Assembly: GCF_013415885.1 (NCBI RefSeq)
Contig: NZ_CP058910.1
Coordinates: 1,054,001-1,118,000 of the forward strand
Direction of reading: 5' to 3'
Source of the DNA: Halosimplex rubrum
GTDB lineage: Archaea; Halobacteriota; Halobacteria; Halobacteriales; Haloarculaceae
DNA: 64,000 bases
The position numbers were made by a program, and so were the translations under genes. Of this stretch, positions 1,581 through 24,156 are shown in pieces. The stretch's first letter is position 1, and every line of letters starts with the position of its first letter. The notes beneath the pieces are model-generated. The model was not told the DNA's origin. It ran no database searches and was given only the letters and a program-made list of their open reading frames with translations.

Positions 1581-2474
1581 TCAGCGCGGGTCCGGCTCCT
1601 CGCCCGACGCGGCCGCGTGCTCGCGCAGGTGACCGGCCGCCATCGACCACTTCTGAAGGCAGGCGATCAGGTACCAGCCGGCGGTCTCGGCGGGGTCGGC
1701 CGCGGCGTCGGCCAGCCGCGTCCGAAACGCGAGGGGGTTCACCGGGAGGAACTGCCGGAGCTCCAGCGGGTGGCGCACGTCGAAGCGGTCGCCGTGAGAC
1801 GCCCGGAGCTCGGCGCGACCGCGTCCGATACGCGCGCTCTGGGAGAGCACGTCGCCGAGCGTCGACCGGGCGGGGTGGTACACCGTCACGTCGGGCGCGT
1901 AGTCGAGGTCGAACCCCGCCGCGTCCACGCGGCGGCCGAACTCCAGGTCGCCGTTCGACCGGAGTCGACCGTCGAAGCGGCCGACGGCGTCGAACACTCG
2001 CCGGCGAGTCACGAGACAGCAGGTCGGTGCGAACCGCTTCTCGCGGACGTACGTCTCCACGTCGAAGCCCGTCGCGCGCCGGTAGCGGGCGACGGTGCCG
2101 TCGTCGGCGACGAGTTCGACGCGACAGCCCGCGTAGTCGCGGTCGCGCTCGGTCATCAGCCGGGTTATCGACTCGACGTAGTCCGGATCGACCCACATGT
2201 CGGCGTCGAGGAAGCCGACGATATCGCCGTCGGCGGCTTCGACGCCGGCGTTGCGCGCGGCGTAGGAACTCTGGACCTCGTCCTCGACGACGTGACGGAC
2301 CCGCTCGCGCTCGGCGAACCGCCGGGCGACCGCCGGCGTCCCGTCGGTCGACCCGTTGTCCGCGACGACGACCTCGTAGTCGGCGGCCGTCTGGTCGGTG
2401 AGCGACGCGAGCGTCTGCTCCAGCCCGCCGGGGTCGTTGTACACCGGCACGACGACGCTCGTCGCCGGGCTCAC
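1581..2474 (-). CDS. Family 2 glycosyltransferase
   Basis: About 297 residues of GT-A fold. SVVVPVYNDPGGLEQTL near the N-terminus is the beta1/nucleotide-binding start, VVVADNGSTDGT follows, and GFLDADMW is the DXD metal site. The ED-type acceptor region follows with LRSNGDLEFGRRV. I place the start at GTG 2474, five codons before the first beta strand; an upstream ATG at 2558 would add a low-complexity extension. There is no large hydrophobic C-terminus, so it probably acts at the cytoplasmic membrane face on a lipid-linked or nucleotide-activated sugar. Its 5' end faces the iron-box-containing region at 2475-2697, so iron control is possible but unproven. Confidence 0.85.
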   Translation of the reverse strand: MSPATSVVVPVYNDPGGLEQTLASLTDQTAADYEVVVADNGSTDGTPAVARRFAERERVRHVVEDEVQSSYAARNAGVEAADGDIVGFLDADMWVDPDYVESITRLMTERDRDYAGCRVELVADDGTVARYRRATGFDVETYVREKRFAPTCCLVTRRRVFDAVGRFDGRLRSNGDLEFGRRVDAAGFDLDYAPDVTVYHPARSTLGDVLSQSARIGRGRAELRASHGDRFDVRHPLELRQFLPVNPLAFRTRLADAAADPAETAGWYLIACLQKWSMAAGHLREHAAASGEEPDPR

Positions 2475-2697: not shown

Positions 2698-4500
2698 ATG
2701 ACAGATCCCGACACGCCGACCGCGTCCCGCGGCGAGAAGCTCGAGGCCCTGCGCAGCGTGCTCGACTACGACCCGCGGCTCACGGGACTGATCGTCGGCG
2801 TCGGCATGGTCGCGGCCGTGCTGGAGGGGGTCGGGCTGAGCTTCATCCTCCCGATCATCGAGCTGGTCCAGTCGGGCGGCGGGTCGCTCGAGGGCGACGG
2901 CGCCGCCGGGCTCTTCGCGACGGCCTACCGCGCGCTGAACGTGCCGCTGACGCTGGCGACGGCCGTCGTCGGCGTCGCGGTCGTGATGACCGTCCGCTTC
3001 GCGGCGAGTTTCCTCGTCGCGTGGCTCCGCGAGCGGCTCCGGATGGCCTACATCGAGCACCTCCAGACCGAGGCGTTCGCGAACGCCTTCCGCGCGGAGA
3101 TCTCCTATCTCGACGAGACGGGCTCGGACGACGTGCTCAACGCGATCATCACCCAGACCTACCACGCGGGCCAGGTGATCCGCCGGCTCGTCCTGTTCAT
3201 CGAGCAGACGTTCCTCGGCGCCGTCTACGGGCTCATCGCGCTGTTCATCTCGCCGCGACTCACGCTGCTGACCGCCGCGGTCCTCGGCGGCGTGACGCTG
3301 CTGTTGCGCGGATTCGTCGAGCCGGACGACGACCTCGGCGACCGCGTCGCCGACGCCAACGAGCGACGACAGGCCGCCGCCCAGGCCGGCACCCAGGGGA
3401 TGCGCGAGAGCCGGATCTTCGGGCTCACCGACGAGCTGTACGGCGACTTCGTCGACGCCGTCGAGCAGTACACGAGCGCCCGCGTCGAGCTCCGTCGCAA
3501 CCAGGCCGCGATCAACAACGCCTACCAGCTGACCGTGGCGGTGTCGGTGTTCGTGCTCGTCTACGTCTCGCTGACCTACGTCGAGCTGACGCTGAGCTCG
3601 CTGGGCCTGTTCCTGTTCGCCATGTTTCGGCTCGGGCCGAAGGCCAGCCGGGCCAACGAGCTGTACTACCGGATCGGCCAGGACCTGCCCCACCTGGTGC
3701 GGACCCGCAACTTCACGCGGGAGCTGGCCGACAACGCCGAGCCCGGGCGGGCCCGCCGCGAGGTCCCCGACCGGGTCGAGTCGGTCACCCTCGACGACGT
3801 GACCTTCTCCTACGACGGGGAGACGACCGTCCTCGACGGGATCGACCTCTCGGTCGAGCGCGGCGAGTTCGTGGCCTTCGTCGGCCAGTCGGGCGCCGGC
3901 AAGTCGACGGTGGTGTCGCTGCTCGCGCGCATGCACGAACCGACCGACGGCGAGATCCGCGCCGACGGCGTCCCCATCGGCGAGATGGACGTCGCCGGCT
4001 GGCGCGACCGCGTCGCGGTCGTCGGTCAGGACCCCTACGTCTTCGACGACACCCTCCGGTACAACCTCACGATCGCCGACCGGGAGGCCTCTCGCGAGGA
4101 ACTCGAGCGGGTCTGTGCGATCGCCCGCGTCGACGAGTTCCTCGACGACCTCCCGAACGGGCTGGACACCCGCGTCGGCGACGACGGCGTCCGGCTCTCG
4201 GGCGGACAGAAACAGCGCGTCGCCATCGCCCGCGCGCTGCTGGACGACGCCGACGTGCTGTGTCTCGACGAGGCGACGAGCGACCTGGACGCGAACCTCG
4301 AACGGGAGGTCCAGCGCGGCATCGAGGGGATGGACCGGGAGTACATCACCGTCACCGTCGCCCACCGGCTGTCGACCGTCGAGAACGCCGACCGCATCTA
4401 CACCCTGGACGAGGGCCGGATCTCCGAGGTCGGCGGCCACGACGAACTGCTGGAGCGCGACGGGGAGTACGCCGACCTCTACGCGATGCAGCGGCGGTGA
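2698..4500 (+). CDS. ABC exporter, fused permease and ATPase (siderophore-locus exporter)
   Basis: A 600-residue half-transporter: six membrane segments in residues 25-310, then a nucleotide-binding domain with Walker A GQSGAGKST (near 397-405), Q-loop, signature LSGGQKQR (about 500-507), Walker B VLCLDEATSDLD and switch His in VTVAHRLST. The membrane part is of the lipid/oligosaccharide-flippase or type IV exporter kind and is clearly paralogous to the transporter at 61700. Start ATG 2698 is preferred over in-frame starts 69 nt upstream because the extension is not conserved in the paralogue. An iron box lies 100 nt upstream and Fe(III) uptake genes follow directly, so export of the locus product, probably a siderophore, is the best guess. 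Confidence 0.75.
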   Translation: MTDPDTPTASRGEKLEALRSVLDYDPRLTGLIVGVGMVAAVLEGVGLSFILPIIELVQSGGGSLEGDGAAGLFATAYRALNVPLTLATAVVGVAVVMTVRFAASFLVAWLRERLRMAYIEHLQTEAFANAFRAEISYLDETGSDDVLNAIITQTYHAGQVIRRLVLFIEQTFLGAVYGLIALFISPRLTLLTAAVLGGVTLLLRGFVEPDDDLGDRVADANERRQAAAQAGTQGMRESRIFGLTDELYGDFVDAVEQYTSARVELRRNQAAINNAYQLTVAVSVFVLVYVSLTYVELTLSSLGLFLFAMFRLGPKASRANELYYRIGQDLPHLVRTRNFTRELADNAEPGRARREVPDRVESVTLDDVTFSYDGETTVLDGIDLSVERGEFVAFVGQSGAGKSTVVSLLARMHEPTDGEIRADGVPIGEMDVAGWRDRVAVVGQDPYVFDDTLRYNLTIADREASREELERVCAIARVDEFLDDLPNGLDTRVGDDGVRLSGGQKQRVAIARALLDDADVLCLDEATSDLDANLEREVQRGIEGMDREYITVTVAHRLSTVENADRIYTLDEGRISEVGGHDELLERDGEYADLYAMQRR

Positions 4501-4582: not shown

Positions 4583-4597
4583 TTTAGGTCGGCCAAA
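4583..4597. promoter_or_regulatory. DtxR-like iron box 2 overlapping the importer promoter
   Basis: TTTAGGTCGGCCAAA is palindromic and matches the box at 2582. It sits 15-29 nt before the ATG at 4612. The AT-rich left edge (CATTTTAGG, 4580-4588) is also where the TATA element of a leaderless transcript would be, so a bound repressor would block TBP. This is the expected layout for iron repression of the importer operon. Confidence 0.65.
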
Positions 4598-4611: not shown

Positions 4612-5895
4612 ATGCACGAGGACCGGAGCGGCGAGGGCGAGGGTGGCCACCGGAGACCGGCGAGCGGCCGCCGGACGACGCCGGGTCGACGGCGGTTCCT
4701 GAAAACGGTCGGTTCGACGGCGGGTCTGCTCGCGCTCGCGGGGTGCGGGAGCGACGGGAGCGGCGGTGGCGGGACCGCCACGCCCGCGCCGGGCTCGACC
4801 GACGACGGGACGGCCACGTCGGCCGGGACGGTCCCGGAGCCGCGGACCTACGCGGCCGACGAACTCTACAACATCGAGGAGTGGCGCGGGTCGGGCCCGC
4901 TGATCGAGAACCGGCCCGACGAGTACACGGGCATCTCGATGCTCGACCTGCCCGACCTGCGGGGCGAGCTGACGGTGTATCTCGGCGGCGGCGAGGGCGG
5001 CCTCTACGAGAACCTCATGTGGCGGATCCAGAACACCTACCGGGATTTCACCGTCACCCCCCGCAAGGCGTCCTCGTCGCAGCTCGCCAACACCATCATC
5101 GAGGAGGCGACCGCGGGGTCGAGCCCGGCGGACGTCTTCTGGGCCATCGACGCGGGGTCGATCGGCATCGTCGCGGAGAACGACGCGACCGTCGAGCTGC
5201 CCGAACGCGTCGTCCGGAGTATCCCGGACACGTTCCACCCCACCGACCAGTGGGTCGGGACCATGGGTCGCGCCCGCAGTGTCCCGTACAACACCGACGA
5301 GTTCTCGGCCGAGGACATCCCGAACGATATCTCGGCGTTCCCCGACGACGACCGCTTCGGGGACGCGATGGGGTGGGCGCCGACCTACGGCGCCTTCCAG
5401 TCGTTCGTCACCGCGATGCGGCTGCTCGAAGGCGAGGACGCGACGCGGCAGTGGCTCGAGGGGATGCAGGAACAGAACACCGGCACGTACGACAACGAGC
5501 TGGTGGTCGCCAACCAGGTCGCCAGCGGCGAGCTCGGCGCCGGCTTCGGGAACCACTACTACTCGCGGCTCGTCCGCGAGGAGCGGCCCGACGCCCCGCT
5601 GGAGCTGGCGTTCACGCAGGGCGACGCCGGCGCGCTCATCAACTGCTCGGGCACGGAGATCGTCAAGGGCACGGACAACGAGGAGCTGGCCGCCGACTTC
5701 ATCCACCACCTGCTCAGCATCGAGGCCCAGGAGTTCCTCGGGACGCGGGGCTACGAGTACCCGCTGTTGCCGAGCGTCCCGCCGGTCGGCGACCTGCCGC
5801 GCATCGACGAGCTGAACCCGCCGGACCTGAACCTGGCGAAGCTGTCGGACCTGGAACCGACGCTGCGACTGCTCCGCGAGACCGGCGTGCTGTAA
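4612..5895 (+). CDS. Iron(III) ABC transporter substrate-binding lipoprotein, FbpA type
   Basis: 427 residues. A twin-arginine signal (RRRFLK at 26-31) leads into a hydrophobic stretch and a lipobox ending LALAGC, so Cys45 is the predicted lipidated residue after Tat export. The mature part is a class II periplasmic-binding fold of the FbpA/thiamine/spermidine clan. A paired tyrosine in GNHYYSR (about residues 316-317) corresponds to the Fe(III)-liganding tyrosine pair of FbpA-type proteins. It is the first gene of a tight three-gene operon (1 nt to the permease) with an iron box on its promoter. It should capture ferric iron, free or chelated, outside the membrane. Confidence 0.85.
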   Translation: MHEDRSGEGEGGHRRPASGRRTTPGRRRFLKTVGSTAGLLALAGCGSDGSGGGGTATPAPGSTDDGTATSAGTVPEPRTYAADELYNIEEWRGSGPLIENRPDEYTGISMLDLPDLRGELTVYLGGGEGGLYENLMWRIQNTYRDFTVTPRKASSSQLANTIIEEATAGSSPADVFWAIDAGSIGIVAENDATVELPERVVRSIPDTFHPTDQWVGTMGRARSVPYNTDEFSAEDIPNDISAFPDDDRFGDAMGWAPTYGAFQSFVTAMRLLEGEDATRQWLEGMQEQNTGTYDNELVVANQVASGELGAGFGNHYYSRLVREERPDAPLELAFTQGDAGALINCSGTEIVKGTDNEELAADFIHHLLSIEAQEFLGTRGYEYPLLPSVPPVGDLPRIDELNPPDLNLAKLSDLEPTLRLLRETGVL

Positions 5896-5896: not shown

Positions 5897-7555
5897 ATGT
5901 CCGTCGTCGACCGGCTCGTCGACCCGCTCGACCGCGAGGAGACCGACGGCCGCCCGGTCGGACTGGCGTTGCTCAGCGCCGCGATCGCCGCCGCGGTGCT
6001 CTCGCCGCTCGCGTGGATCGTCGTGCGCGTCCTCCAGGTCGACACCGACTACGCGCTGTCGATCCTCGCCCGGCCGGCGACCGTCGAGATCCTGCTGACC
6101 AGCCTCGGACTCGTCGCCGCCGTCACGGGCTTCTCGATACTCCTGGGCGTCCCGCTGGCCTTCCTGACCGTCCGGACCGACCTCCCGTTCCGCCGGTTCT
6201 GGACGGTCGCCGTGGCGCTGCCGCTGGTCGTCCCGAGCTACCTCGGCGCCTTCACGTTCATCATGGCGTTCGGCCCCAGCGGCGAACTCGCCGACGTGCT
6301 CGCGCCCCTCGGGATCGCGTCGATCCCCTCGATCTACGGGTTCCCCGGCACGGCGCTCGTGCTCACGCTGTACACCTACCCCTACGTCTTCATCACGACC
6401 CGCGCGTCGCTGCTGTCGTTCGACCAGCAGCTCGTCGAGGCCGCCCGCACGCTGGGGATCTCCCGCTGGGCGGCGTTCAAGCGGGTGACGCTTCCGCAGC
6501 TCCTCCCTGGGATCACCTCCGGCGCCCTGCTGGTCGCGCTGTACGCCCTTTCGGACTTCGGAACGCCGGCGCTGTTGCGGCTGGACGTGTTCACCCGGGT
6601 CATCATGGTCGAGTTCAACACGTTCGGCCGCGAGACCGCCGCCCTGCTGTCGCTGCAGCTGCTGGCGATCACGGCGGTCATCCTCGCCATCGAGTCGCGG
6701 GTCGGCGACTCGACGCAGGGCGCCTACGTCGGGGCGAGCCCGAACCAGGGGAGCGACACGACGGTCTCGCTCGGCGCCTGGAAGCTCCCGGCGCTTCTGT
6801 TCTGTGCCGTCGTCGTCGCCCTCTGTCTCGTCGTCCCGATCGGCGTCTTGGTGCTGTGGCTGGTCCGCAGCCCCGAGACGGCCGCGCGGATCGGCACCGA
6901 GTTCCAGTGGGGCTTCGCGCTCAACTCGACGAAGGTGTCGCTGGCGACGGCGCTGGTCTGTGCCGTCGCGGCGGTCCCGGTCGCCTACTTCGCGGCGCGT
7001 CACCGATCGCGGCTGGCCGAGCTGTTCGACCGGGCGACCTACGTCGGCTACGCGATGCCGGGGATCGTCCTCGGGCTGGCGCTCGTGTTCTTCGGCGTCT
7101 GGTACCAGTCGGCCGCCGGCGGGCTCTCGACGGACCTCTTCGGTGCGGACTACTCGCCCCAGCTCTACCAGGCGCTGCCGCTGTTGATATTCGCCTACGT
7201 CGTCCGCTTTCTCCCCCAGTCGGTCGGCGCGACCCGGTCGTCGGTGCGCCGCGTCGACCGGAGCCTCACCGAGGCCGCCCGCACCCTCGGCCGCACCCGC
7301 TCGGCCGCGTTCCGCCGGATCACGCTCCCGCTCATCGCGCCCGGCGTGATCGGCGGCGCCGCGCTCGTGTTCCTCACGACGATGAAGGAGCTGCCGGCGA
7401 CGCTGTTGCTCCACCCGACGGGCTTCGAGACACTCGTCACGTATATCTGGGGCCTCCGCGAAAGTGCCAACTACGGAGCGGTCGCCGTCCCCGCCCTCGC
7501 GCTGATCGTCGTCTCCGGCCTCTCGATGGTCGTCATCCTCTCACAGGAGGACTAA
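5897..7555 (+). CDS. Iron(III) ABC transporter permease, FbpB type
   Basis: 552 residues with about twelve membrane helices in two homologous halves, as in FbpB and ThiP. Each half carries the EAA coupling loop: EAARTLGISRWAAFKRVTLP in the first half and EAARTLGRTRSAAFRRITLP in the second. A short hydrophilic linker near residues 265-290 joins the halves. One fused protein therefore supplies both permease domains. It begins 1 nt after the binding-protein stop and is followed after 3 nt by the ATPase, so the three are surely co-transcribed and translationally coupled. Confidence 0.88.
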   Translation: MSVVDRLVDPLDREETDGRPVGLALLSAAIAAAVLSPLAWIVVRVLQVDTDYALSILARPATVEILLTSLGLVAAVTGFSILLGVPLAFLTVRTDLPFRRFWTVAVALPLVVPSYLGAFTFIMAFGPSGELADVLAPLGIASIPSIYGFPGTALVLTLYTYPYVFITTRASLLSFDQQLVEAARTLGISRWAAFKRVTLPQLLPGITSGALLVALYALSDFGTPALLRLDVFTRVIMVEFNTFGRETAALLSLQLLAITAVILAIESRVGDSTQGAYVGASPNQGSDTTVSLGAWKLPALLFCAVVVALCLVVPIGVLVLWLVRSPETAARIGTEFQWGFALNSTKVSLATALVCAVAAVPVAYFAARHRSRLAELFDRATYVGYAMPGIVLGLALVFFGVWYQSAAGGLSTDLFGADYSPQLYQALPLLIFAYVVRFLPQSVGATRSSVRRVDRSLTEAARTLGRTRSAAFRRITLPLIAPGVIGGAALVFLTTMKELPATLLLHPTGFETLVTYIWGLRESANYGAVAVPALALIVVSGLSMVVILSQED

Positions 7556-7558: not shown

Positions 7559-8701
7559 ATGTCACGTGATATCCACCGGAACCCGGCCGCCACGCCCGCG
7601 ACGTCGACCGCCCCCGACGCGACCGACGGACCGGTCGGCGAGCCCGTGCTCGAACTCGACGGCGTCGTCCGGTCGTACGCCTCCGAGACCGCGGTCGAGG
7701 AGCTGTCGCTGACCGTCGGCGACGGCGAAGTGCTCACGCTGCTCGGCCCGTCGGGCTGTGGCAAGACGACGACGCTGCGGCTGGTCGGCGGCCTCGAACA
7801 CCCCGACGCCGGGTCCATCGAACTGCGCGAGACGCCGATCGCCGACGCCGACAACGGGACGGTCGTCCCGCCGGAGGAGCGCGGTATCGGGCTCGTCTTC
7901 CAGGACTTCGCGCTGTTCCCGCACATGACCGCCGCGGAGAACGTCGGCTTCGGCCTCGACGACTGGGACGAGGCCGACCGCCGCGAGCGCGTCGCCGACC
8001 TGCTCGAACTGGTCGACCTCGCCGACCACGGCGAGGACTACCCCGGCGAGCTCTCGGGCGGGCAGAAACAGCGCGTCGCGCTCGCCCGCTCGCTCGCGCC
8101 CGAACCGGACGTGTTGCTGCTGGACGAGCCGCTCAGCAACCTCGACGTGAGCCTCCGCGTCTCGATGCGCGAGGAGATCCGCCGGATCATCGACGAGACG
8201 GGCGTCACCGCCATCTGGGTCACCCACGACCAGGAGGAGGCGCTGTCGGTCGCCGACCGCGTCGGCATCATGAACGACGGCCGGCTCCGGCAGGTCGGCC
8301 GCCCGGAGCGGATCTTCGAGCGCCCCGCCTCGCGGTTCGTCGCCTCCTTCCTCGGCCGCACGGGCTTTCTCTCGGGTGAGCGCCAGGCGGACACGGTCGC
8401 GACCGACCTGGGTCGGATCGACGCCGACCGGATCGCCGACCTCGACGCCGTGCAGGGGGAGACGGTCGACGTCCTCGTCCGCCCGGACGACCTGCGGGCG
8501 ACGCCGACGACCGAGGGAGAGGCCCACGGCCGGATCACGAGCCGGCAGTACCAGGGCCCCTCGTTCGTCTACCGCGTCGAGACGGCCGGCGGCGACACGG
8601 TCCACTGCCTCCAGAACCACACCGAGGTGTTCGACGTGGGGCAGCCGGTCGCCGTCGACCTCGTCGCCGACCACCCGCTGCAGTGGTTCCCCCGGGACTG
8701 A
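7559..8701 (+). CDS. Iron(III) ABC transporter ATP-binding protein, FbpC type
   Basis: 380 residues. Walker A GPSGCGKTT (63-71), signature LSGGQKQR (165-172), Walker B VLLLDEPLSNLD and switch WVTHDQEEAL form a complete ATPase. The C-terminal 100 residues are a TOBE-like domain as in FbpC, PotA and MalK proteins. The first about 25 residues are a Thr/Ala/Pro-rich extension common in haloarchaeal proteins. It is the last gene of the iron-box-controlled importer operon and converges with the ligase gene after a 24-nt gap. It energises Fe(III) import through the permease at 5897. Confidence 0.88.
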   Translation: MSRDIHRNPAATPATSTAPDATDGPVGEPVLELDGVVRSYASETAVEELSLTVGDGEVLTLLGPSGCGKTTTLRLVGGLEHPDAGSIELRETPIADADNGTVVPPEERGIGLVFQDFALFPHMTAAENVGFGLDDWDEADRRERVADLLELVDLADHGEDYPGELSGGQKQRVALARSLAPEPDVLLLDEPLSNLDVSLRVSMREEIRRIIDETGVTAIWVTHDQEEALSVADRVGIMNDGRLRQVGRPERIFERPASRFVASFLGRTGFLSGERQADTVATDLGRIDADRIADLDAVQGETVDVLVRPDDLRATPTTEGEAHGRITSRQYQGPSFVYRVETAGGDTVHCLQNHTEVFDVGQPVAVDLVADHPLQWFPRD

Positions 8702-8725: not shown

Positions 8726-10588
8726 TCAGGCGCGAACCGTCTCTTCGTCTTCGACGGCCTCGCTATCGCCGTCGAGCACGCGCCGCGTGAGCGGCATCTC
8801 GAGGACGCTGACCAGCCGGTACAGCTCCTCGGCCGCGTTCGTCTCGCCCGCGCGATGGCGGCGGTACGTCTCGCGGGCGGCTGCGGCGTCGACCCCCGGG
8901 AGCCGGCGGAGCAGGGCGTCGTTGCGGTCGAGGGCGCGACCGACGAAGTCGTCGGTCCGGACGACCTCGTTCTTGTCCTGCCAGGGCCCGTCGGTCCGGT
9001 AGTCGGCCCCGCCGAGCTTGTCGAGCTGGTTCACCACGCGGTTGCCGACCGCGTGGGCCGCCTTCGGGTACGTCAGGGGCACTCGCGTCCCGGCGTGGGG
9101 GATCGCGGCCAGCGAACCGTCGAGCCGGTCGATCGCCCGGTGGAGCGGGTCCGCTCGCAGGCGGTACCGCAGCGGCATCGAGCAGTGTAACTCCACCAGC
9201 CGGCGGTCGAGGAACGGGTTGCGCGTCGGCGCGATCTGCACCGCGCTGTAGAGGTCGAACCCGATCCCGTTCGTGATGGGGTACAGCGTCGAACTGAGGC
9301 CGAGCTGTTCGACCGACTCGTACTCGACGCCGTGGTAGTCGACCCGGCCGTCCCGCGACGCGATGTTGTCGGCGAGGATCTCGCCCAGCGGCGTCGCGTC
9401 GAGGAAGGCCGGCCGGCGCGTCGGCCCCGCTGTCACCTGGCCGTCGACGAACGCGGCGGTCGTCGACGGCAGCCGCTCGACGGGGAGCCAGAACCGGACG
9501 CCCGCCGGGAGGTCGAGCGTGGCCTGGGGGACGCTCCAGGAGCCGAAGAGGTCGTCGCTGTACAGCCCCGTCAGCAGCGTGTCGGCTTCGCCGCGGATCT
9601 CGTCGGCGAACCCGAGCGCGTGGCCCGTGTGGAACGGGCCGACGAACTCCTGGATCGGGCCCGCCCGGTCGAGCAAGTCGGCGTGATACGCCGGCCCGCG
9701 GTCCAGCCGGTGAAAGTCCGCACCGGCGGCGTCGGCCGACCGCTCGGCGACTCGCGCCTCCCGGGTGTCGCCGTCGCTCAGGTGGAAGGCCGAGAGCGGC
9801 CCCTCGGCGGCGGCCAGCACCGCTCGGGAGTCGCTGCCGCCGCTCAGCAGGAGGCCGTGGTCGCGGTCGTCGCTCGTCCGGTCGGCGACCGCCCGCTCGA
9901 AGCGCTCGGCGAGTTCGTCCACGAAATACGACAGCGGCTCGTCGACCGGCCGGTGTCGCGGCTCCCAGTAGGTCCGCCGTTCCGTGTCGCCGGTGTCGAC
10001 GTCGTAGGTCAGCGTCGTCGCCGGCGGGAGCTGTCGGACCCCCTCGATGGGCGTCGTCGTGCCGAGCGTCCGCCGGCTGTAGACGTACTCGGCGAGCGCC
10101 CGCTCGTCGAACCGGGGCTCGAACCCGGGAACGACCGGGACCGTCTGGACGTTCGTCGAGACGGCGATACCGTCGCCGGCGACCGCGTAGTACAGCGGCC
10201 GCGCCCCGAGTCGGTCGAGGAAGAGCGTGACCGTCCCCGCGGCCGGCTCGTACACGAAGCCGGCGAACTCCCCGTCGAGCCGCTCGACGAACCTCAGCCC
10301 GCGTTTCGCGTACTCTCGCGCGCACGTGCGAGCGGACTCGTTCGGGTCGACGGTCGTCCGGTCGCCGTCGCCGTCGGTGACGCTGTACACCTCGCCCCAC
10401 AGCCACACGAGCGCGCCGTCGGCGGTCTCGGCCGGCTGGTCGGTCGCCGTCCCCGCGTGGAACGCCGACCGGACCCGAACGTCCCGGTCGCGGTAGCCGT
10501 CGGTGACCTCGTCGTCGACCGTCGGCGGCACCGTCGCCACCTCGCAGCTGCCGGCGCCCGCGCCGAACACTCCGGAGAGCCCGACCAT
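8726..10588 (-). CDS. Asparagine-synthetase-like ligase without Cys2 (putative siderophore amide ligase)
   Basis: 620 residues in the AsnB architecture. An N-terminal class II amidotransferase-like domain (1-205) begins MVGLSGVFG, where active AsnB has Met-Cys-Gly: the glutaminase nucleophile is Val, so glutamine cannot serve as nitrogen donor. The synthetase domain is intact: PP-loop SGGSDS at 249-254 and LTGLYSDDLFGSW near 339-351. The pattern resembles AsnB relatives that adenylate a carboxylate and join it to an amine, such as beta-lactam synthetase and lasso cyclase. It lies 1 nt after the N-hydroxylase stop in one operon with it and the acyltransferase, under iron boxes. I infer amide bond formation in siderophore assembly. 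Start ATG 10588 is clear because the upstream frame is low-complexity. Family certain, role inferred. Confidence 0.75.
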   Translation of the reverse strand: MVGLSGVFGAGAGSCEVATVPPTVDDEVTDGYRDRDVRVRSAFHAGTATDQPAETADGALVWLWGEVYSVTDGDGDRTTVDPNESARTCAREYAKRGLRFVERLDGEFAGFVYEPAAGTVTLFLDRLGARPLYYAVAGDGIAVSTNVQTVPVVPGFEPRFDERALAEYVYSRRTLGTTTPIEGVRQLPPATTLTYDVDTGDTERRTYWEPRHRPVDEPLSYFVDELAERFERAVADRTSDDRDHGLLLSGGSDSRAVLAAAEGPLSAFHLSDGDTREARVAERSADAAGADFHRLDRGPAYHADLLDRAGPIQEFVGPFHTGHALGFADEIRGEADTLLTGLYSDDLFGSWSVPQATLDLPAGVRFWLPVERLPSTTAAFVDGQVTAGPTRRPAFLDATPLGEILADNIASRDGRVDYHGVEYESVEQLGLSSTLYPITNGIGFDLYSAVQIAPTRNPFLDRRLVELHCSMPLRYRLRADPLHRAIDRLDGSLAAIPHAGTRVPLTYPKAAHAVGNRVVNQLDKLGGADYRTDGPWQDKNEVVRTDDFVGRALDRNDALLRRLPGVDAAAARETYRRHRAGETNAAEELYRLVSVLEMPLTRRVLDGDSEAVEDEETVRA

Positions 10589-10589: not shown

Positions 10590-11969
10590 TCAGTCGTCGC
10601 CCCGGAGTCGCGGTCGCGACTCCGGGATACGGCGGGCCCCCCGCTCGGCGACGAACTCGTCGACGGCGAACTGCTGGAAGGTGTCGGCCCGCGAGGCGTC
10701 GTACACCTCCTCGCCGACGATCCCGTTGACGATCGTCGCGTTGCGGTACGGCCCGAGCCCGAGGTCGGGGGCGTTGATCCCGTGGGTGTGCAGCTCCGCG
10801 TTCTGGACGAAGATCTCGCCGGGCAGGTCCGTCTCCAGCCGGAAGTCCTTCGTGATCGCCAGGCGGCCCTGGCCGTCGCGGCGGATACGGTCCTCCAGCG
10901 GCGCGAGGAAGGGCGGCTCCGTCCGGGCGTAGCCCGTCGCGAGGACGACCACATCGCTCTCGTGGAGGAACCGCTCGTCCTCCTGCCAGTGGTGGCAGAT
11001 CAACTGGTAGCGGTCACTGACCGAGCGGTCGGGCCCGACGTCGACGGTGCCGATGTCCGCGACCTCGGTCGCGGCGAGCATGCCGACGTCCGGGTCGCCG
11101 TCGCCGACGGAGCGCCGATACAGCGCGTCGTAGATCCGCCCGCTCGTCCGCTCGTCGATCCCCTTGTACAGCAGGTCCTGCCCGTCGAGCAGCTCGTCTT
11201 TCGTCCCCTGGTCGAGGTCGTAGAAGTACTCCGTGTAGTCGGGCGTGTAGATCATGTGGCCGAGCTTGGCGTCGGCCATCTGGAAGAAGCCGCGCGAGCG
11301 GGTGATCCAGTCGAGGCCGAACTCGCGGTCGGCCTGTCGTTCGAGGAGGTCGCGGAACACCTCCGCGGCGCTCTGGCCGGAGCCGACGATCGTGACGGAG
11401 TCGGCGTCGAGACAGCGCTCGCGGTTGTGGAGGTACGACGCCGAGTGGAACACGTCGCCGCCGAGGCAGTCCTCGAACTGCTCGGGGACGTGTCGCTGGG
11501 TGCCGATCCCCATCACCACGTCCTCGGCGGCGTAGCGGTCGCGCTCGCCCGTCGTCGGGTCGACCGTCTCGACGACGAACAGGTCCCCGTCGACGCGCAC
11601 GTCGGTGACGCGGCTGTCGAATTCGAGCGACGGGAGCCGGTCGGCCACCCACCGGCAGTACTCGTTGTACTCGCGGCGCGGGATGAAAAACTCCTCGTAG
11701 AAGTAGAACTCGTAGAGCCGGTCCTCGGCCTGGAGGTAGTTGAGGTAGCTGTAGGGGTTCGACGGGTCCGCCATCGTGACCAGGTCGGCGAGGAACGGCA
11801 CCTCCATCGTGGTCTCCTCGACGAGCATCCCCTCGTGCCAGTCGAACGCCGGCTCCTGTTCGAGGAACCGGACGTCCAGGTCGGCGTCGGCGCCGTCGAG
11901 CAGCGCCGCCAGCCCGAGGTTGAACGGCCCGACGCCGATCCCGACGACGTCGTGGACGCGGTCGGTCAC
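10590..11969 (-). CDS. L-lysine/L-ornithine N-monooxygenase, IucD/SidA family
   Basis: 459 residues. The FAD-binding motif GIGVGPFNLGLA is at 10-21, the NADPH-binding motif GSGQSAAEV at 196-204, and an ATGY motif lies near residue 350, as in the flavin N-hydroxylases that make the hydroxylamine precursor of hydroxamate siderophores. Start is GTG 11969, which overlaps the acyltransferase stop as GTGA; the open frame upstream overlaps that gene and is not coding. It would N-hydroxylate a terminal amine of lysine, ornithine or a diamine, using NADPH and O2, before acylation by the neighbouring GNAT. The substrate cannot be told from sequence. No decarboxylase or diamine aminotransferase is nearby. 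Confidence 0.88.
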   Translation of the reverse strand: MTDRVHDVVGIGVGPFNLGLAALLDGADADLDVRFLEQEPAFDWHEGMLVEETTMEVPFLADLVTMADPSNPYSYLNYLQAEDRLYEFYFYEEFFIPRREYNEYCRWVADRLPSLEFDSRVTDVRVDGDLFVVETVDPTTGERDRYAAEDVVMGIGTQRHVPEQFEDCLGGDVFHSASYLHNRERCLDADSVTIVGSGQSAAEVFRDLLERQADREFGLDWITRSRGFFQMADAKLGHMIYTPDYTEYFYDLDQGTKDELLDGQDLLYKGIDERTSGRIYDALYRRSVGDGDPDVGMLAATEVADIGTVDVGPDRSVSDRYQLICHHWQEDERFLHESDVVVLATGYARTEPPFLAPLEDRIRRDGQGRLAITKDFRLETDLPGEIFVQNAELHTHGINAPDLGLGPYRNATIVNGIVGEEVYDASRADTFQQFAVDEFVAERGARRIPESRPRLRGDD

Positions 11970-12553
11970 GCGTACTCCTCCTCGAAGCGCTCGCGGTCGC
12001 AGACCATGAGCTGGCCCGTCTTGTCCGGCAGTTCGACCTCGCGGACGCGCTCGAAGCCGCTCTTCTCGAAGACGCGGATGGCTCGCTCGTTGCGGGCGTC
12101 CGGCTCGGTGACGATCCGGTCGGTCTCGGGGTGGCGGAACTGGAAGGCGACCATCGCCCGCACCAGCGGCGCCCCGTAGCCCTCGCCGAGGTACTCCTCC
12201 GGCCCGACGAGCAGGTGGATCCCCTGGTCGGCCGGGTCGGCGTCGTAGTAGCCGGCGATGCGGTCGTCGGCCGCCCAGTACGACTCCCAGTAGCTCATCG
12301 GCACGTGGTCGAGATAGCCGATGTACAGCGTCTGCCCGTTGTCGTTCGCCCGCCGTTCGATCGTCTCCCGGACCTCCGGCAGCGGGTCGTCCTGCGTCCA
12401 GTACGGCAGGACGTGCTCGCTGTTCAGCCAGGCGTGGAGCCGGCCGAGGTCGCGCTCGACGTCCACCTCGCGGAACCCGATCGTCTTCCCGACGGCCTCG
12501 TCGTTCGTGACGTAGCTGTAGCCCGAACCGACGACCTCTCGCGGCCCGGTCAT
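11966..12553 (-). CDS. Siderophore N-acyltransferase, IucB/AlcB/RhbD family GNAT
   Basis: 195 residues covering the whole Acetyltransf_8 domain. Diagnostic stretches are LGRLHAWLNSEHVLPYW, PMSYWESYW, GIHLLVGPEEYLGEGYG and EPDARNERAIRVFEKSGF. The GEGYGAPL segment is the acyl-CoA pyrophosphate loop and the ARNERA helix is typical of the family. These enzymes acylate N-hydroxylated amines to form the iron-chelating hydroxamate. It is the first gene of the minus-strand operon (acyltransferase, hydroxylase, ligase), with two iron boxes 100-140 nt upstream. Acyl donor not predictable. Confidence 0.88.
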   Translation of the reverse strand: MTGPREVVGSGYSYVTNDEAVGKTIGFREVDVERDLGRLHAWLNSEHVLPYWTQDDPLPEVRETIERRANDNGQTLYIGYLDHVPMSYWESYWAADDRIAGYYDADPADQGIHLLVGPEEYLGEGYGAPLVRAMVAFQFRHPETDRIVTEPDARNERAIRVFEKSGFERVREVELPDKTGQLMVCDRERFEEEYA

Positions 12554-12648: not shown

Positions 12649-12693
12649 TTTTAGGCGACCCTCAAAACGATTCCGATTTTTAGGGTGGCCGAA
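12649..12693. promoter_or_regulatory. Tandem DtxR-like iron boxes before the siderophore operon
   Basis: Two boxes lie about 29 nt apart. The distal one, TTTAGGGTGGCCGAAA (12679-12694), is a good palindrome of the local consensus. The proximal one, TTTTAGGCGACCCTCAAAA (12649-12667), keeps the TTTAGG half and a weaker right half. On the minus strand the proximal box merges with a TATA-like CTAAAATTAC, about 95 nt before the acyltransferase ATG. Three helical turns of spacing suit cooperative binding of two dimers. Confidence 0.55.
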
Positions 12694-12786: not shown

Positions 12787-13887
12787 TCAGGCGCCCACGT
12801 CGACCACGGTCCCGTCGACGGCGACGGTCCGGAAGTCCAGCAGCACGTTCGAGCCCTCCCGGACCGGTCGGGTGCGAAAGCGGAGGCCGTCGTCGGTGCG
12901 GCGCACGCGCAGGTCGACGGTGAGGTACACGTCCTCGTTCCGCGGGTGCTCGCGCTCGTAGATGTTGCCGTCCTCGCTGGTGAGGACGACCGACGCCGGT
13001 TCCGACCGCACGTCGGTGATCTCGGCGAGGGTCGTCCCGTCGCGCCGCTCGACCATCCCCGCTTCGAGGCCGTCGGCGATGTCCGGCTCGACGCCGTCCA
13101 GCCGGACGACCGCGGTCGCGCTCGCCGGTTCGCCCGGCAGCGAGGCGTTGCCCCACCGCGTCACCGACCCGGACAGCGCGTAGCGTTCGGTGCGGAACGG
13201 GACGGTCTGGCCCACGAGGACCCGCCTGTCGCCGAAGTAGGTGCCACCGCCGTAGCGGACCGTCCGCAGCGAGAGGCCGAGCATGGCGGTCCGGTTGCCG
13301 CCCCCGGCGGAGGCGACGGTGGTCTCGGTGACCGTCGCGACCGTCCGGTCGTCGAGCCGGTAGCCGTCGCCGCGGTCGACGAGCGCGGCCGTCGCCGGCG
13401 GCACGCTCGCCTCGACGAGGACCGGTAGCCGTCCCGTCTCCAGGGTCGTGTTCGCGGCCCCGAGCTCGACCACCTCGCCCTCGGCGTCGTAGGCGGCCGT
13501 CTCCAGCGTCAGGTTGTCGCCCCGGCGCAGGGTCTCGCCGCCGAACTCGAAGACGGAAGCGTCCGCCGCCGGGTCGTCGACGAGCGTCCCGTTGACCCGG
13601 ACGCGGACCACGACCGACGCCGTGTCGCCGTCGCCGGGGCCGACGTACGCGTCGGTGACGGCCAGCGCGCCGCCGGAGTCGTTGCCCTCGGCGATCCGTG
13701 CGGCCGTCGACAGCGGCTGCTGGCCCAGGTCGACCGTCGCGTAGCGCGCGGCCGGGTCGCCGCCCTCGGGGAACGGGTCGACGAACAGGACGCCGGCGCC
13801 GAGCGCGCCGACGAGGACGACCACCACGAGCGCGTCGTAGACGTTGACCCGTCCGAACAGGCGCCCGGACTCGTCGATGATCGTCAC
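12787..13887 (-). CDS. DUF4330 family membrane-anchored protein
   Basis: 366 residues from GTG 13887. The N-terminus VTIIDESGRLFGRVNVYDAL followed by a single hydrophobic helix (about 20-40) is the DUF4330 signature. The rest is a large extracytoplasmic region with repeated beta-strand patterns, Val- and Thr-rich. An ATG at 13983 would add 32 residues that look non-coding and would abut the iron box, so I prefer the GTG. An iron box directly upstream suggests iron-repressed expression together with the siderophore genes. The family has no established function; a surface or secretion-related role in iron acquisition is inference from regulation only. Confidence 0.75.
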   Translation of the reverse strand: MTIIDESGRLFGRVNVYDALVVVVLVGALGAGVLFVDPFPEGGDPAARYATVDLGQQPLSTAARIAEGNDSGGALAVTDAYVGPGDGDTASVVVRVRVNGTLVDDPAADASVFEFGGETLRRGDNLTLETAAYDAEGEVVELGAANTTLETGRLPVLVEASVPPATAALVDRGDGYRLDDRTVATVTETTVASAGGGNRTAMLGLSLRTVRYGGGTYFGDRRVLVGQTVPFRTERYALSGSVTRWGNASLPGEPASATAVVRLDGVEPDIADGLEAGMVERRDGTTLAEITDVRSEPASVVLTSEDGNIYEREHPRNEDVYLTVDLRVRRTDDGLRFRTRPVREGSNVLLDFRTVAVDGTVVDVGA

Positions 13888-13989: not shown

Positions 13990-14004
13990 TTTGGCCGGCC
14001 TAAA
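13990..14004. promoter_or_regulatory. DtxR-like iron box before the DUF4330 gene
   Basis: TTTGGCCGGCCTAAA is the most symmetrical of the boxes (one mismatch between half-sites). On the minus strand it is followed immediately by ACAATATG, a plausible TATA element (about 13981-13988), and then by about 95 nt to the GTG start at 13887. This is the position of a BRE-blocking operator. It lies 115 nt beyond the end of the GT4 gene and so does not control that gene. Confidence 0.6.
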
Positions 14005-14119: not shown

Positions 14120-15352
14120 CTACCGCTCGACGGCGTCCGACCGCTCGACGGCTCGCTCGTACAGCGCCTCGAACTGCGGGACGACGGCGTCGGCCCGGTA
14201 GCGTTCGACCGTCCGGTTGGCCGCCGCGGAGGTGGCCGCGGCGTCGCCGTCGAACAGCGTCCGGACCGCGTCGACGAACCCTTCGACGGAGCCGTCGGTG
14301 GTCACTCCGCCGTCGCCGACGATCGCGGCGACGCTGCCCACGTCGCTGGCGACGACGGGCGTCCCGGCCGCCAGCGCTTCGAGGAACACCCGGCCGAACG
14401 GCTCGTCCCACCGACCGGGGTAGAGGAAACAGTCGTGGGCGGCGTACAGCGCCGGGAGGTCGTCGTTGTCGAGCCAGCCGGTGAACGTGACCGACTCGCC
14501 GAGGCCCCGCTCGTCGGCCGCCGCCTCCAGGTCGGTCCGGAGCCCGCCGTCGCCGACGACGGTCAGCCGGTACCGTTCGCCCGACCCGTTCAGCCGGTCG
14601 AGGACCGGCACCAGGCGGTCGACGCCTTTGTGTTCGTCGAGCGACCCGACGTACAGCAACTCGTAGGGCTCCTCGAAGTCGCTCCCGTGCGCTCGGTCGA
14701 ACCGCTCGTCCAGGATGTTCGGGATCACCGTCAGCCGGTCGCGCGGGAACCCGAACTCGGCGTAGGTCTCGCGGATGTGCGGCGAGAGGGCGTGGTAGGC
14801 GTCGATCCGGTCGGCGACGCGCTCGCCCTCGCGGACCAGCTTCAGGTAGCCCAGCCGGCTGGCCGACCGATACAGGGGGCCGTCCTCGTCGTGGCCGCCG
14901 CTGGTCGCGACCGAACAGGCCGCGCACTTCGCGAGCCCGTTGCTGGTACAGGGCTCGCGGTCCATGTACCGGAGGTCGTTCTTCGGGCAGACCGCGCCGT
15001 AGGCGTTCAGCGTCAGCACCGTCGCCGCGCTCGTCTCGGCCGCGACCTCGCCCAGCGCCGGGAGGCTGTTCAGCACGTAGCTGTGGACGACGTCGAAGGC
15101 GTCGAACTCGGGGACGCGCTCGCGTAGCGCGGCGTCGAGTTGCAGCGCCGAGTGGTACGGGGAGCCGTCCGCGTCGAGCGAGCGCACCGAGATATCCCGC
15201 TCGAACGTCGCGTCGGCCGGCGGGTCCGCCCAGCAGTAGACCGTCACGTCGTGGCCGCGGTCGGCCAGCTCGAAGACGATCCGGGAGGCGCTGTGGGTCG
15301 CGCCCGTCCCCTCGCCCTGCGGATACGTCGGGTGGACGAAGCCGACCCGCAC
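14120..15352 (-). CDS. Family 4 glycosyltransferase (GT-B fold)
   Basis: 410 residues starting at GTG 15352, 2 nt after the preceding stop. It opens with VRVGFVHPTYPQGEGTGATH, the N-terminal Rossmann start with its glycine loop. The C-terminal domain has LLYVGSLDEHKGVDRL and GRVFLEALAAGTPVVASDVG, the donor-binding EX7E region of GT4 enzymes. A cysteine cluster in the middle (about 120-155: CPKNDLRYMDREPC, CAACS) is common in GT4 proteins that carry a metal-binding insert. It is probably co-transcribed with the sulfatase-like gene upstream and acts in surface-glycan synthesis. Acceptor unknown. Confidence 0.85.
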   Translation of the reverse strand: MRVGFVHPTYPQGEGTGATHSASRIVFELADRGHDVTVYCWADPPADATFERDISVRSLDADGSPYHSALQLDAALRERVPEFDAFDVVHSYVLNSLPALGEVAAETSAATVLTLNAYGAVCPKNDLRYMDREPCTSNGLAKCAACSVATSGGHDEDGPLYRSASRLGYLKLVREGERVADRIDAYHALSPHIRETYAEFGFPRDRLTVIPNILDERFDRAHGSDFEEPYELLYVGSLDEHKGVDRLVPVLDRLNGSGERYRLTVVGDGGLRTDLEAAADERGLGESVTFTGWLDNDDLPALYAAHDCFLYPGRWDEPFGRVFLEALAAGTPVVASDVGSVAAIVGDGGVTTDGSVEGFVDAVRTLFDGDAAATSAAANRTVERYRADAVVPQFEALYERAVERSDAVER

Positions 15353-15354: not shown

Positions 15355-16281
15355 TTACTCCGCGTACCCGAGGTCCCGCAGTCGGTCGGCGACCACGTCG
15401 TCGTCGAGCGATTCGCTCGCGGCGGCGGGCGCCGACGCGTCGACGGTCCGGCGCGGGCCGTCCTCGTGGACGAGCCACGGCACGTCGACGAGTTCGGGCG
15501 TGTAGACCCCACGCGGGTGACCCCACTCCCGGAACGGGATCGGGAACGCCCGCTCGCCGACCATGTTCCCGTGGTCGGCCGTGACGACCGTCTTCCCGTC
15601 GAACTCGCGCAGCAACCGCTCGACGTGGGGCAGCGCCCGGTCGAGGTTGGCGTCGTACAGCTCCCAGACCGCCTCGCGGTCGACGTCGAGCCGACCCTGC
15701 AGCAGCTGGACCCAGACGTTCTCCTCGGTGGCCTCGGGGTCGGTGAAATCGCCGCCGTCGAAGTCGGTCTCGCTGCCCACGAACGGGTAGTGCGGTTGCA
15801 TGTAGTGGACGACGAGCCGCTTGTTCGGGTACTCCTCGTTCGCTCGTAGCGCCGCCTCGGTCATCGTCTCGGGGAGGACCGTCCCGTGTTCCTCGCTCCA
15901 GCCCTCGCCCGACCAGATGTCGACGATGTCGGCGAACTCAGCCCGGATCGACTCGCGATGTTGGTGCAGCTGCGGGTTCGCGGTCACGTACACCGTGTCG
16001 CGCAGGTCGCGGCCGTCGACGTTCGCTCGCAGGAACTCCACGGTCGTCGAGGCCCGGGACCGCCGGCGTTCGAGGTCGCCCGGGAGCGTCGACCGCCGCT
16101 CGAACATGTCGTACCGACAGGCGTCGAGCACGACCAGCGTGTCCCAGTCGGCCTCGAACGGGTCCGTCCCCGCGTCGTTGCACTCCCGGAGCCCGAGCCG
16201 TCGGTGATACAGCCGGTTCGCCTGCCGGCAGAACAGCACGGGCGTGGCGAGCGCGCGGACCAGTCGCGACCGCGTGTCCAT
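15355..16281 (-). CDS. Sulfatase/alkaline-phosphatase superfamily protein
   Basis: 308 residues from ATG 16281. LVVLDACRYDMF supplies the N-terminal metal Asp of the alkaline phosphatase superfamily, and VVTADHGNMVGE supplies the second metal pair with the conserved DHG. No Cys/Ser-x-Pro-x-Arg formylglycine motif is visible, so it is unlikely to be a true sulfatase; a phospho- or phosphoglycerol-type transfer is possible. There is no obvious signal peptide. The product is followed after 2 nt by the GT4 gene, so both probably work on the same glycan. The family is frequent in haloarchaeal glycan loci. Confidence 0.7.
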   Translation of the reverse strand: MDTRSRLVRALATPVLFCRQANRLYHRRLGLRECNDAGTDPFEADWDTLVVLDACRYDMFERRSTLPGDLERRRSRASTTVEFLRANVDGRDLRDTVYVTANPQLHQHRESIRAEFADIVDIWSGEGWSEEHGTVLPETMTEAALRANEEYPNKRLVVHYMQPHYPFVGSETDFDGGDFTDPEATEENVWVQLLQGRLDVDREAVWELYDANLDRALPHVERLLREFDGKTVVTADHGNMVGERAFPIPFREWGHPRGVYTPELVDVPWLVHEDGPRRTVDASAPAAASESLDDDVVADRLRDLGYAE

Positions 16282-17046: not shown

Positions 17047-18719
17047 GCCGACCACCGCCGTCGGGCCCGCGCCAGCGCGGCGTCGAACCGCTCGTCGTCC
17101 GTCCAGTCGACGACGCGGACGCCGGCCGACCGGAGCGCCGACAGCCGCTCGTCGCGCTCGTCGGCGGCGCGCTCGTGGGGGCCGGTGTCCCGGACGGTCG
17201 GGTCGGGGCTCACGACGGTCACGTCGCGGCCGTAGGCGGCGAGCCGGCGGGCGACCCGCCGCGGGTAGTCGTCGCAACAGGGCGAGACGAGCATGATCTG
17301 CGCGTCAGGGTCGAGCCGCCGGTGGATCCGGCGGATACGCCGCAGCCGGAGGGTCGTGCGCCGGTCGGGCGGGTAGCGCTCGTGGAGCTTCCGGGCGGGC
17401 GGGACCGGCGACAGCGCGGGGTGGACGTTCAGCAGCTCGCGGCCCAGAGCGCGGTGGTCGCCGCCGGCGCCGGGCGCGAGTCGACAGCCGTCGCGCTCGC
17501 GCCCGAACGTCTCGAAGCCGACGCGGTCGCCGGCGTCGAGGAGCGCGTCGAACACGCGGTGGGCGGCGTCGACGCCGCGCTCGACGGCGTGGTAGCCGTC
17601 GGGCGCCGACGCGCGGTAGGCGGCCCGCCGCGTGTCGACGACGAGCTGGACGACCGCCGACCGCTCCTCGCGGAACTCGACGGTCGCCAGCTCGCCCGTC
17701 TTGGCCAGCTGCCCCCAGTCGATCCGCGAGAGGGGGTCCGAGCGGCGGTACTCGCGGGTGGCGTGGAACTCGATGCCGGGGCCGCCCTCGTCGGTCTCGA
17801 CGCGGCCGGCGAAGCCGGCGGTCGTCCCGCCGACCGGCACCCGCTCGCCGTCCAGCACGGGAAGCGTACATCGAAGGGTCGTCGACGCCGCGACGGTCGT
17901 CTCGTACTCGACGGCGCCGCTGGGGTCCGCGACCGTCAGTTCGGCGCGCGTCCAGTCGTGTTCGCCCCGCGTCGCCCGGACGGTGTAGGTGAACGTCGTC
18001 CGGCCGCCGGGGGCCAGCGGCGCGCCGTGGCGGGCCGAGCCGTCGATAACGGCCACCTCGTCGGGGACGCCGTCGACGACGCGCACGTCCGTCAGGTACT
18101 CGTCGCTCTCGTTTCGCAGTTCGACGCCGACGGTCACCGAGTCGCCCGGTTCGGGCGACTCGTCGGCGAGCCGCCGGCGGACGCTCACCGCCGGCTCGCC
18201 CGTCTCGGCGTCCCGGAGCGGCGGTTCGACCGCGCCCGCGTACCCCGCGACGGCGGCGCCGACCACCCCCGAGAGCACCAGCCCCGGCGCCCGCGAGACG
18301 ACGCCGAGCCCGCCCAGCACGAGCGCGACCGCCACCGCGCCCGTCCAGTGCCCCGTCGCGTGAGCGAGGACCGCCGACCCCTCGCCCCCCTCACTGTCCT
18401 CGCCTTCTCCACCGTCTCCGTCGCGAGCGGCGGCCGCGTCGCCGCTCGGCCGGCTTCGGTCACGAGCCCCGGCGAACGCGGGGTCCTCGTCACCGGGGAC
18501 GGGGACCAGGAAGCCCCGTTCGGGGTCCCGCGGGCGCCAGCGGTCGGGGTCGACGAAGCGGCGGCCCGCCGCAGCGGCCAGTCCCGCGACGACCACCGCA
18601 CCGGCCCCGAGCGCCGCGAGCGCGGCCGCGACCCGGGACGTTCCGGGACCGCCGCCCCACGCGGCCAGCCCCAGGCCGACGACGACGGCGCCGACGCCGA
18701 CCCAGCCACGGCGCTTCAT
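17043..18719 (-). CDS. DUF58 domain protein (MoxR-associated, vWA-like)
   Basis: 558 residues. Two or three hydrophobic segments at 5-55 and 120-165 anchor it. A CARDB-like beta domain (about 190-290) follows, then the DUF58 core with GGPGIEFHATREYRRSDPL and SRIDWGQLAKTGELATVEF, and a vWA-like end (VVQLVVDTRRA, IMLVSPCCDD). DUF58 proteins work with MoxR-type AAA chaperones and DUF4129/transglutaminase partners, probably in assembly or quality control at the cell surface. Neither MoxR nor transglutaminase is in this operon. Start ATG 18719 overlaps the DUF4129 stop as ATGA. Confidence 0.85.
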   Translation of the reverse strand: MKRRGWVGVGAVVVGLGLAAWGGGPGTSRVAAALAALGAGAVVVAGLAAAAGRRFVDPDRWRPRDPERGFLVPVPGDEDPAFAGARDRSRPSGDAAAARDGDGGEGEDSEGGEGSAVLAHATGHWTGAVAVALVLGGLGVVSRAPGLVLSGVVGAAVAGYAGAVEPPLRDAETGEPAVSVRRRLADESPEPGDSVTVGVELRNESDEYLTDVRVVDGVPDEVAVIDGSARHGAPLAPGGRTTFTYTVRATRGEHDWTRAELTVADPSGAVEYETTVAASTTLRCTLPVLDGERVPVGGTTAGFAGRVETDEGGPGIEFHATREYRRSDPLSRIDWGQLAKTGELATVEFREERSAVVQLVVDTRRAAYRASAPDGYHAVERGVDAAHRVFDALLDAGDRVGFETFGRERDGCRLAPGAGGDHRALGRELLNVHPALSPVPPARKLHERYPPDRRTTLRLRRIRRIHRRLDPDAQIMLVSPCCDDYPRRVARRLAAYGRDVTVVSPDPTVRDTGPHERAADERDERLSALRSAGVRVVDWTDDERFDAALARARRRWSA

Positions 18720-23533: not shown

Positions 23534-24156
23534 TATGCGAACAGCACGCCCTCGCTGACGTACTCCTGTACCGCTTCGATCCCGTCGCCGGCCTTGCAGT
23601 TCGTGAAGACGAACGGACCGTCGCGCACGTCGTCGGCGTCGGCCTCCAACACGTCGAGATCCACGTCGACGTGAGGCGCCAGATCGGTCTTGTTGATCAC
23701 GAGCAGGTCGCAGTCGACGACGCCCGGGCCGCGCTTGCGCGGGATGTCCTCGCCCTCGGCCACCGAGATGACGTACAGCGAGTAGTCGGCGAGTTCCGGG
23801 TTGAAGGTCGCGGCGAGGTTGTCGCCGCCGCTCTCGACGATGACGAGGTCGAGGTCGGGGTAGTCGGCGAGGAACTCGTCGATCTGCGCGAGGTTCATCG
23901 AGGGGTCCTCGCGGATGCCGGTGTGGGGGCAGGCGCCGGTCTCGACGCCCGCGACCAAGTCCTCGGGGACGACGCCCGAGAATCGCTCCCGGAGGGCGTC
24001 GGCGTCCTCCTGCGTGAGCACGTCGTTGGCGATGACGCCCACGTCCAGGCCGGCGTCTCGAAGCCGGGGAACGAGTTCGGTCACGAGCGCGGTCTTGCCC
24101 GAGCCCACGGGACCGCCGATACCGACCGTCGCCACGTCGCGGTGGGTGAGGCTCAC
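23533..24156 (-). CDS. ureG: Urease accessory GTPase UreG
   Basis: 207 residues from GTG 24156, overlapping the ureA stop as GTGA. The P-loop [11 protein letters not shown] is at about 14-24. [15 protein letters not shown] (the CPH nickel-binding motif between the switch regions) and [21 protein letters not shown] follow, and [11 protein letters not shown] is the NKxD guanine-specificity motif. All nickel and GTP residues expected of UreG are seen. It couples GTP hydrolysis to nickel insertion into UreC. Confidence 0.95.

Follow-up and report, generated by a model that had tools for sequence, protein, structure and literature searches.

Organization of the locus

The window, by which we mean the whole 64-kb stretch of DNA analysed, comes from a haloarchaeal chromosome of 4.48 Mb, and the closest named relative that we found is Halosimplex pelagicum, with a protein identity of 92%. 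The gene on which we focus (8726–10588, minus strand) codes for a 620-amino-acid AsnB-fold protein (P0001), a putative ligase lacking the N-terminal Cys, and is the terminal gene of a hydroxamate operon in the order acyltransferase, N-hydroxylase, AsnB. Both enzymes that mark a hydroxamate pathway are present, i.e. a GNAT N-acyltransferase of the IucB/RhbD type (11966–12553, minus strand; PF13523, 3e-52) and an FAD N-hydroxylase (10590–11969, minus strand; PF13434, 4.5e-109), the latter being the sole gene of its kind in the genome and overlapping the acyltransferase stop codon by 4 nt with its start. Beyond the acyltransferase, also on the minus strand, lie genes for a DUF4330 protein (12787–13887, with a start that may instead be at 13983), a GT4 glycosyltransferase (14120–15352) and a sulfatase/alkaline-phosphatase-like protein with a weak Pfam match below the cut-off (15355–16281).

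On the other side of the operon, profile matches and conservation of the cluster identify three plus-strand genes of a ferric-iron ABC importer, namely an FbpA-type ferric-iron-binding protein (4612–5895; PDB 7w3w, E 5.8e-49), a fused permease (5897–7555) and an ATPase (7559–8701), together with an ABC exporter/flippase of the HepA/MsbA/PglK type (2698–4500, plus strand); neighbourhood comparison adds a GT2 glycosyltransferase (1581–2444, minus strand). By their NCBIfam names, the ABC subunits would form a phosphonate importer, an assignment that we rejected because the scores are below the cut-offs and the matches of the binding protein are to proteins that bind ferric iron.

Nine genomes from six families have the acyltransferase, hydroxylase and AsnB genes side by side (G000, G091, G093, G278, G151, G184, G330, G261 and G295), G330 being Halorubrum saccharovorum, and G091 and G093 the two closest to the genome studied here. 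The operon context from which the original prediction argued is real, tightly packed and kept in all nine. The conserved set also includes the GT2, GT4, sulfatase-like, DUF4330 and ABC exporter genes, although some genomes miss some of these members; in H. saccharovorum the start of GT2 and the stop of AsnB share 4 nt. Among 52 genomes of the genus to which G330 belongs, the hydroxylase or the AsnB was found in G330 only, which has both, and this distribution points to lateral transfer of the two as a unit. Three of the nine genomes carry a second AsnB copy; these copies stand alone and form their own subclade (L123, 5140–6963; L052, 14137–15957; L122, 8602–10428).

We regard the start of the AsnB-fold gene as secure because its ATG lies one base past the hydroxylase stop (TGA-G-ATG) and because all of the other cluster AsnBs (11/11) share the M1-V2-G3 alignment. 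An alternative upstream start giving a Met-Cys N-terminus, which had been named as a finding that would count against the prediction, was rejected: a search of the relatives gave no upstream Met-Cys-Gly start that would fit in any of them, and an in-frame ATG at 10954, within the hydroxylase gene, does not produce a Cys start. Both N-termini that had been compared, MVGLSGVFG of this protein and MCGIIG of the GlmS encoded in the same window (59747–61606, plus strand), can be read directly from the translations.

An AsnB fold with a degenerate glutaminase site

In Pfam searches the protein showed an Asn_synthase domain (1.1e-15) and a weak GATase_7 domain only, with no PF04183, the IucA/IucC domain of NIS synthetases. 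Its score against the NCBIfam AsnB equivalog TIGR01536, 101.5 bits, is far below the cut-off of 267.1. An AlphaFold model based on 39 sequences (pLDDT 92.1, pTM 0.92) is AsnB-like over its full length, as predicted for this Val2 protein, with full-length structural matches to the TsnB9 hydroxyamidotransferase (7ylz; Z 27.1), beta-lactam synthetase (1jgt/1m1z; Z 25.8), E. coli AsnB (Z 24.9) and carbapenam synthetase, CarA (1q15/1q19; Z 21.6). The structural alignment to AsnB begins at residue 2 of the model and, in the AsnB chain, at residue 1, which is the mature Cys.

Taking E. coli AsnB (sequence from MG1655) as the reference, we found that the position of the nucleophile Cys is V2, which is invariant in the clade of AsnBs from the cluster, that the position of N75 is an invariant Trp (W64), and that the positions of R50 and D99 are not conserved. 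The N-terminal Cys, the glutamine-pocket residues and the score of a glutamine-dependent AsnB are thus all lacking, and with these changes a glutaminase reaction appears very unlikely. As the glutaminase site is lost, an amine other than glutamine-derived ammonia would be the natural nucleophile, and the suggestion that Cys2 loss goes with the use of an amine gains backing from the loss of the N75, R50 and D99 equivalents as well.

The features of an AsnB-fold ATP-pyrophosphatase ligase, i.e. the SGGxDS PP-loop, the SD motif and the two-domain fold, are all found. The SGGSDS and YSDD motifs were correctly read, in LLSGGSDSR (residues 247–255) and GLYSDDLFGS (residues 341–350), and the PP-loop is conserved across the 39 sequences. 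The description of the ATP site as intact holds for the PP-loop, SGG(S)DSR, and D345. The position that is Glu in AsnB and Tyr in beta-lactam synthetase (GEGSD/GYGSD) is Leu342 here, within GLYSD, and no Lys is seen by sequence at the expected RxK place, where the C-terminal alignment is weak. Because the known catalytic Glu/Tyr and Lys positions are not recognizable in the sequence, the chemistry may differ from that of AsnB and beta-lactam synthetase.

Beta-lactam and carbapenam synthetases share with the present protein an AsnB fold without a working glutaminase and, if our prediction for it is right, the ATP-dependent joining of a substrate amine into an amide. However, the amine on which they act is internal to a small substrate, they belong to another pathway, regulation and group of organisms, and their catalytic Tyr/Glu-Lys set is the one not recognizable here. 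Transfer from glutamyl hydroxamate requires the N-terminal Cys of the glutaminase fold. The TsnB9 type is the best match by both fold and profile and likewise works in hydroxamate biosynthesis. The TsnB-like homologue SaHAT moves the hydroxamate nitrogen from glutamyl hydroxamate (PMC13418202) in a reaction of the glutaminase type, whereas the present protein has no Cys at position 2 and the hydroxamate of its operon is predicted to come from the hydroxylase and the GNAT.

Absence of Cys2 in a haloarchaeal family

In 39 aligned haloarchaeal sequences, position 2 is Val in 32, Ala in three, Ser in two, Pro in one and Thr in one, and Cys in none. By this comparison, the absence of Cys2 is a trait of the haloarchaeal family and not peculiar to the protein under study; the idea that Val2 makes it special was rejected, all aligned relatives being without Cys2, and the reading of Cys2 loss by itself as the mark of a hydroxamate enzyme finds no support. 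The relatives, which share the SGG-DSR core and are 28–43% identical, occupy 39 loci. Unlike the iron cluster, none of these loci has the GNAT–hydroxylase pair, and no perfect iron box (see below) was found in the 739 kb around them. Their nameable neighbours include a phosphodiesterase, FemAB-like and ATP-grasp sugar-transfer proteins, a Wzx flippase and a DegT aminotransferase, and many of these Cys-less relatives lie in surface-glycan loci.

In the phylogenetic tree the 12 iron-cluster AsnBs form a single clade (SH-aLRT 100) nested within the haloarchaeal family, and this clade has 38 specific invariant positions, including Glu314 and Asp445, at which it differs consistently from the relatives; these suggest an altered substrate. 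A placement among cell-surface polysaccharide AsnB proteins with no tie to iron had been set down as grounds for dropping the prediction. The first half of that outcome was borne out by the nesting and the second was not, the tie of the iron-cluster AsnB to iron being strongly supported by the boxes described below. One related AsnB locus without iron genes (L043) has relatives of the flippase and of the DUF4330 protein, the latter being conserved also in some non-iron glycan/AsnB loci, and L043 suggests that the hydroxamate pair was added to an older glycan module.

Given the genes that adjoin the relatives, the AsnB-like protein might put some other amine on the glycan, as the relatives may do, and have no part in hydroxamate chemistry, the GNAT–hydroxylase pair serving another pathway. 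The stand-alone second AsnB copies are in keeping with this, as is genome G262, which has the GNAT–hydroxylase pair without this AsnB. We nevertheless consider it improbable, since the gene is spaced by a single base from the hydroxylase, the two are linked in nine genomes, seven of these have no NIS synthetase that could use the hydroxamate, and the clade-specific positions suggest a changed substrate. The G262 pair (L128, 8513–10452) belongs to the same clade, is basal in the hydroxylase tree and has no iron box upstream, and the genome also carries a canonical iuc operon.

The AsnB gene in the position of an NIS synthetase

The best PDB matches of the cluster hydroxylase are a DesB-like enzyme (6xbb, 7e-103), DfoA (5o8p) and a putrescine N-hydroxylase (7us3), with lysine and ornithine hydroxylases well behind these diamine enzymes, and DfoC is among the structure-database matches of the GNAT. 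The proximity to diamine hydroxylases suggests that the substrate is a diamine whose acylated product retains a free amine. No linked diamine-making gene was found at the cluster. Synthesis of 1,3-diaminopropane via the DAT gene was rejected as the universal source of the amine, as DAT is below the cut-off in six of the nine cluster genomes.

The canonical haloarchaeal hydroxylases are 56–61% identical to the cluster hydroxylase and fall in a separate clade of the hydroxylase tree. In 11 of 13 genomes with a canonical hydroxylase, IucA/IucC-family genes lie on both sides of the GNAT–hydroxylase pair, one of them directly after the hydroxylase. As this is the place taken by the AsnB gene in our operon, AsnB occupies the slot of the NIS synthetase (IucA/IucC). 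The iuc (schizokinen) operon of Haloferax volcanii (PMC7407949) likewise has overlapping GNAT and hydroxylase genes and iron regulation, which here is predicted from boxes, whereas the AsnB operon lacks IucA, IucC and the diaminobutyrate genes and has an AsnB-like gene in the synthetase position after the hydroxylase.

PF04183 was found in all 13 of the canonical-hydroxylase genomes tested and, when searched for in the nine cluster genomes, was absent from seven, including G091 and G093. In the genome studied here and in G278, IucA/IucC genes are present elsewhere, unlinked to the three-gene operon. It could be argued that the hydroxylase and GNAT feed the unlinked IucA/IucC pair of the present genome and that AsnB is incidental, as that pair is iron-boxed and has no hydroxylase beside it. 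With no IucA/IucC in seven of the nine genomes, an unlinked pair was rejected as a general partner, and we hold this explanation to be very improbable, although an additional use of the hydroxamates by the pair could occur in the present genome. The locus of the orphan pair (L051, 1.884–1.902 Mb) also encodes an MFS exporter and an FhuD-like binding protein and has three iron boxes, with neither hydroxylase nor acyltransferase beside the pair; its product may be a carboxylate siderophore, or it may draw on hydroxamates from the window operon.

Iron boxes

The 14-bp DtxR/IdeR consensus is TTAGGNNNNCCTAA (PMC8464063), and the upstream sequences carry TTTTAGGTCGGCCAAAA-type palindromes that match it. 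Allowing at most one mismatch, the 64-kb window contains five sites, all in the cluster, against 0.02 expected; the standards of comparison were the bacterial IdeR consensus and the iron genes of the same genome. Two sites with one mismatch each (12651–12664 and 12680–12693) lie upstream of the GNAT–hydroxylase–AsnB operon, and the others are upstream of DUF4330 (13990–14003), upstream of the iron importer (4584–4597; an exact fit to TTAGGNNNNCCWAA) and between GT2 and the ABC exporter (2582–2595). The whole genome has about 22 perfect boxes and a reversed control gave none; several of the genomic boxes precede genes for iron-siderophore-binding proteins (FecB), FecCD-type permeases and an IucA gene.

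In the other cluster loci, the GNAT operon and the importer are preceded by boxes, as is the exporter in most of these loci, and each of the three second AsnB copies, including one in G278 that lies about 40 kb away, has its own box 101–118 bp upstream. By this measure the predicted sites of the AsnB cluster are iron boxes of the DtxR/IdeR type, and we infer control by a DtxR-family repressor. A gene for a 476-amino-acid protein with a Tat-like N-terminus and no Pfam match (L126, 17870–19300, with a counterpart in L127) adjoins the cluster in G261 and G295, and its called start is preceded at 7 bp by a perfect iron box.

Glycan genes and proposed function

An initiating sugar-phosphate transferase gene (PF02397) that is iron-boxed lies in or near the cluster in G330, G184, G151, G278, G261 and G295, together with further glycosyltransferases and, in G278, a Wzy_C ligase as well. 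In the genome studied here, a second locus at 1.331–1.338 Mb encodes a PF02397 transferase, a PMT_2-type membrane enzyme and two GT4s, with three iron boxes; this unlinked glycan locus (L191, 1330.7–1338.4 kb) has gene types that are cluster-linked in other genomes.

On balance, we think it probable from sequence and context that the AsnB-fold enzyme is an ATP-dependent amide ligase of a hydroxamate pathway within an iron-starvation gene set. An aliphatic diamine would be N-hydroxylated at one of its amines by the hydroxylase, and the GNAT would then acylate the N-hydroxylated amine, with an acetyl or succinyl group, to give the hydroxamate. The PP-loop synthetase domain of the AsnB-fold enzyme would adenylate a carboxylate, which the hydroxamate block, through its free amine and in place of ammonia, would attack to form an amide. 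The ligase would thereby replace the NIS synthetase, of the IucA/IucC type, that ordinary haloarchaeal siderophore operons use. As to the acceptor, the gene neighbourhood and shared iron boxes lead us to propose, tentatively, the glycan served by the iron-boxed glycosyltransferases, sugar-phosphate transferase and ABC flippase, with a uronic acid in it as the preferred candidate. The resulting glycan or glycolipid would bind iron and feed the FbpA-type Fe3+ importer encoded alongside. If hydroxamates were covalently attached to such a surface glycan or glycolipid, and it were made only under iron starvation, it would amount to a cell-anchored siderophore, an idea that we hold to be possible but short of probable. 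With similar reserve, its chelators might be amide-linked by a Cys-less AsnB and deliver Fe3+ to the FbpA-type importer with no NRPS or NIS synthetase.

The ligase could instead join hydroxamate blocks to citrate or another small carboxylate, or head-to-tail in a DesD-like manner if the GNAT uses succinyl-CoA, to give a soluble siderophore, the glycan genes being merely co-regulated neighbours. Desferrioxamine enzymes among the nearest hydroxylases, the DfoC match of the GNAT, the NIS synthetase slot and the iron boxes would all fit this. Yet neither an MFS siderophore exporter nor an FhuD-type receptor was found in the conserved cluster, the importer is of the free-Fe3+ (FbpA) type, the genes for the glycosyltransferases, flippase and sugar-phosphate transferase are both kept in the cluster set and preceded by iron boxes, and the AsnB family is otherwise often glycan-associated, so that we judge a soluble product unlikely.

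The known routes of hydroxamate siderophore assembly use either NRPSs or synthetases of the IucA/IucC type. If confirmed, an AsnB-fold ligase in the place of the NIS enzyme would be a third logic of siderophore assembly, and one in archaea; neither an AsnB-type siderophore ligase nor a glycan-bound hydroxamate was found in the open-access papers searched. If hydroxamates are carried on the surface glycan, the iron trap would stay with the cell and not be shared, which bears on siderophore cheating in communities. The large, nameless haloarchaeal family of Cys-less AsnB proteins also gains a branch linked to a function, whose further members can be traced by the iron-box signature.

Elsewhere in the window, ARAGORN called a tRNA-Glu(ctc) (17753–17842, plus strand) inside a minus-strand gene for a DUF58 protein, probably a false positive. 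Urease genes, of which UreC was confirmed with Pfam, lie in the region 21145–35382, along with a metal-uptake transporter of the CbiM type and an ABC transporter that, with its Peripla_BP_5/6 binding protein, looks like one for urea. In addition, a second ABC exporter (61700–63493), 56% identical to the cluster exporter, lies beside GlmU-like and GlmS genes and is likely to be another glycan export unit.
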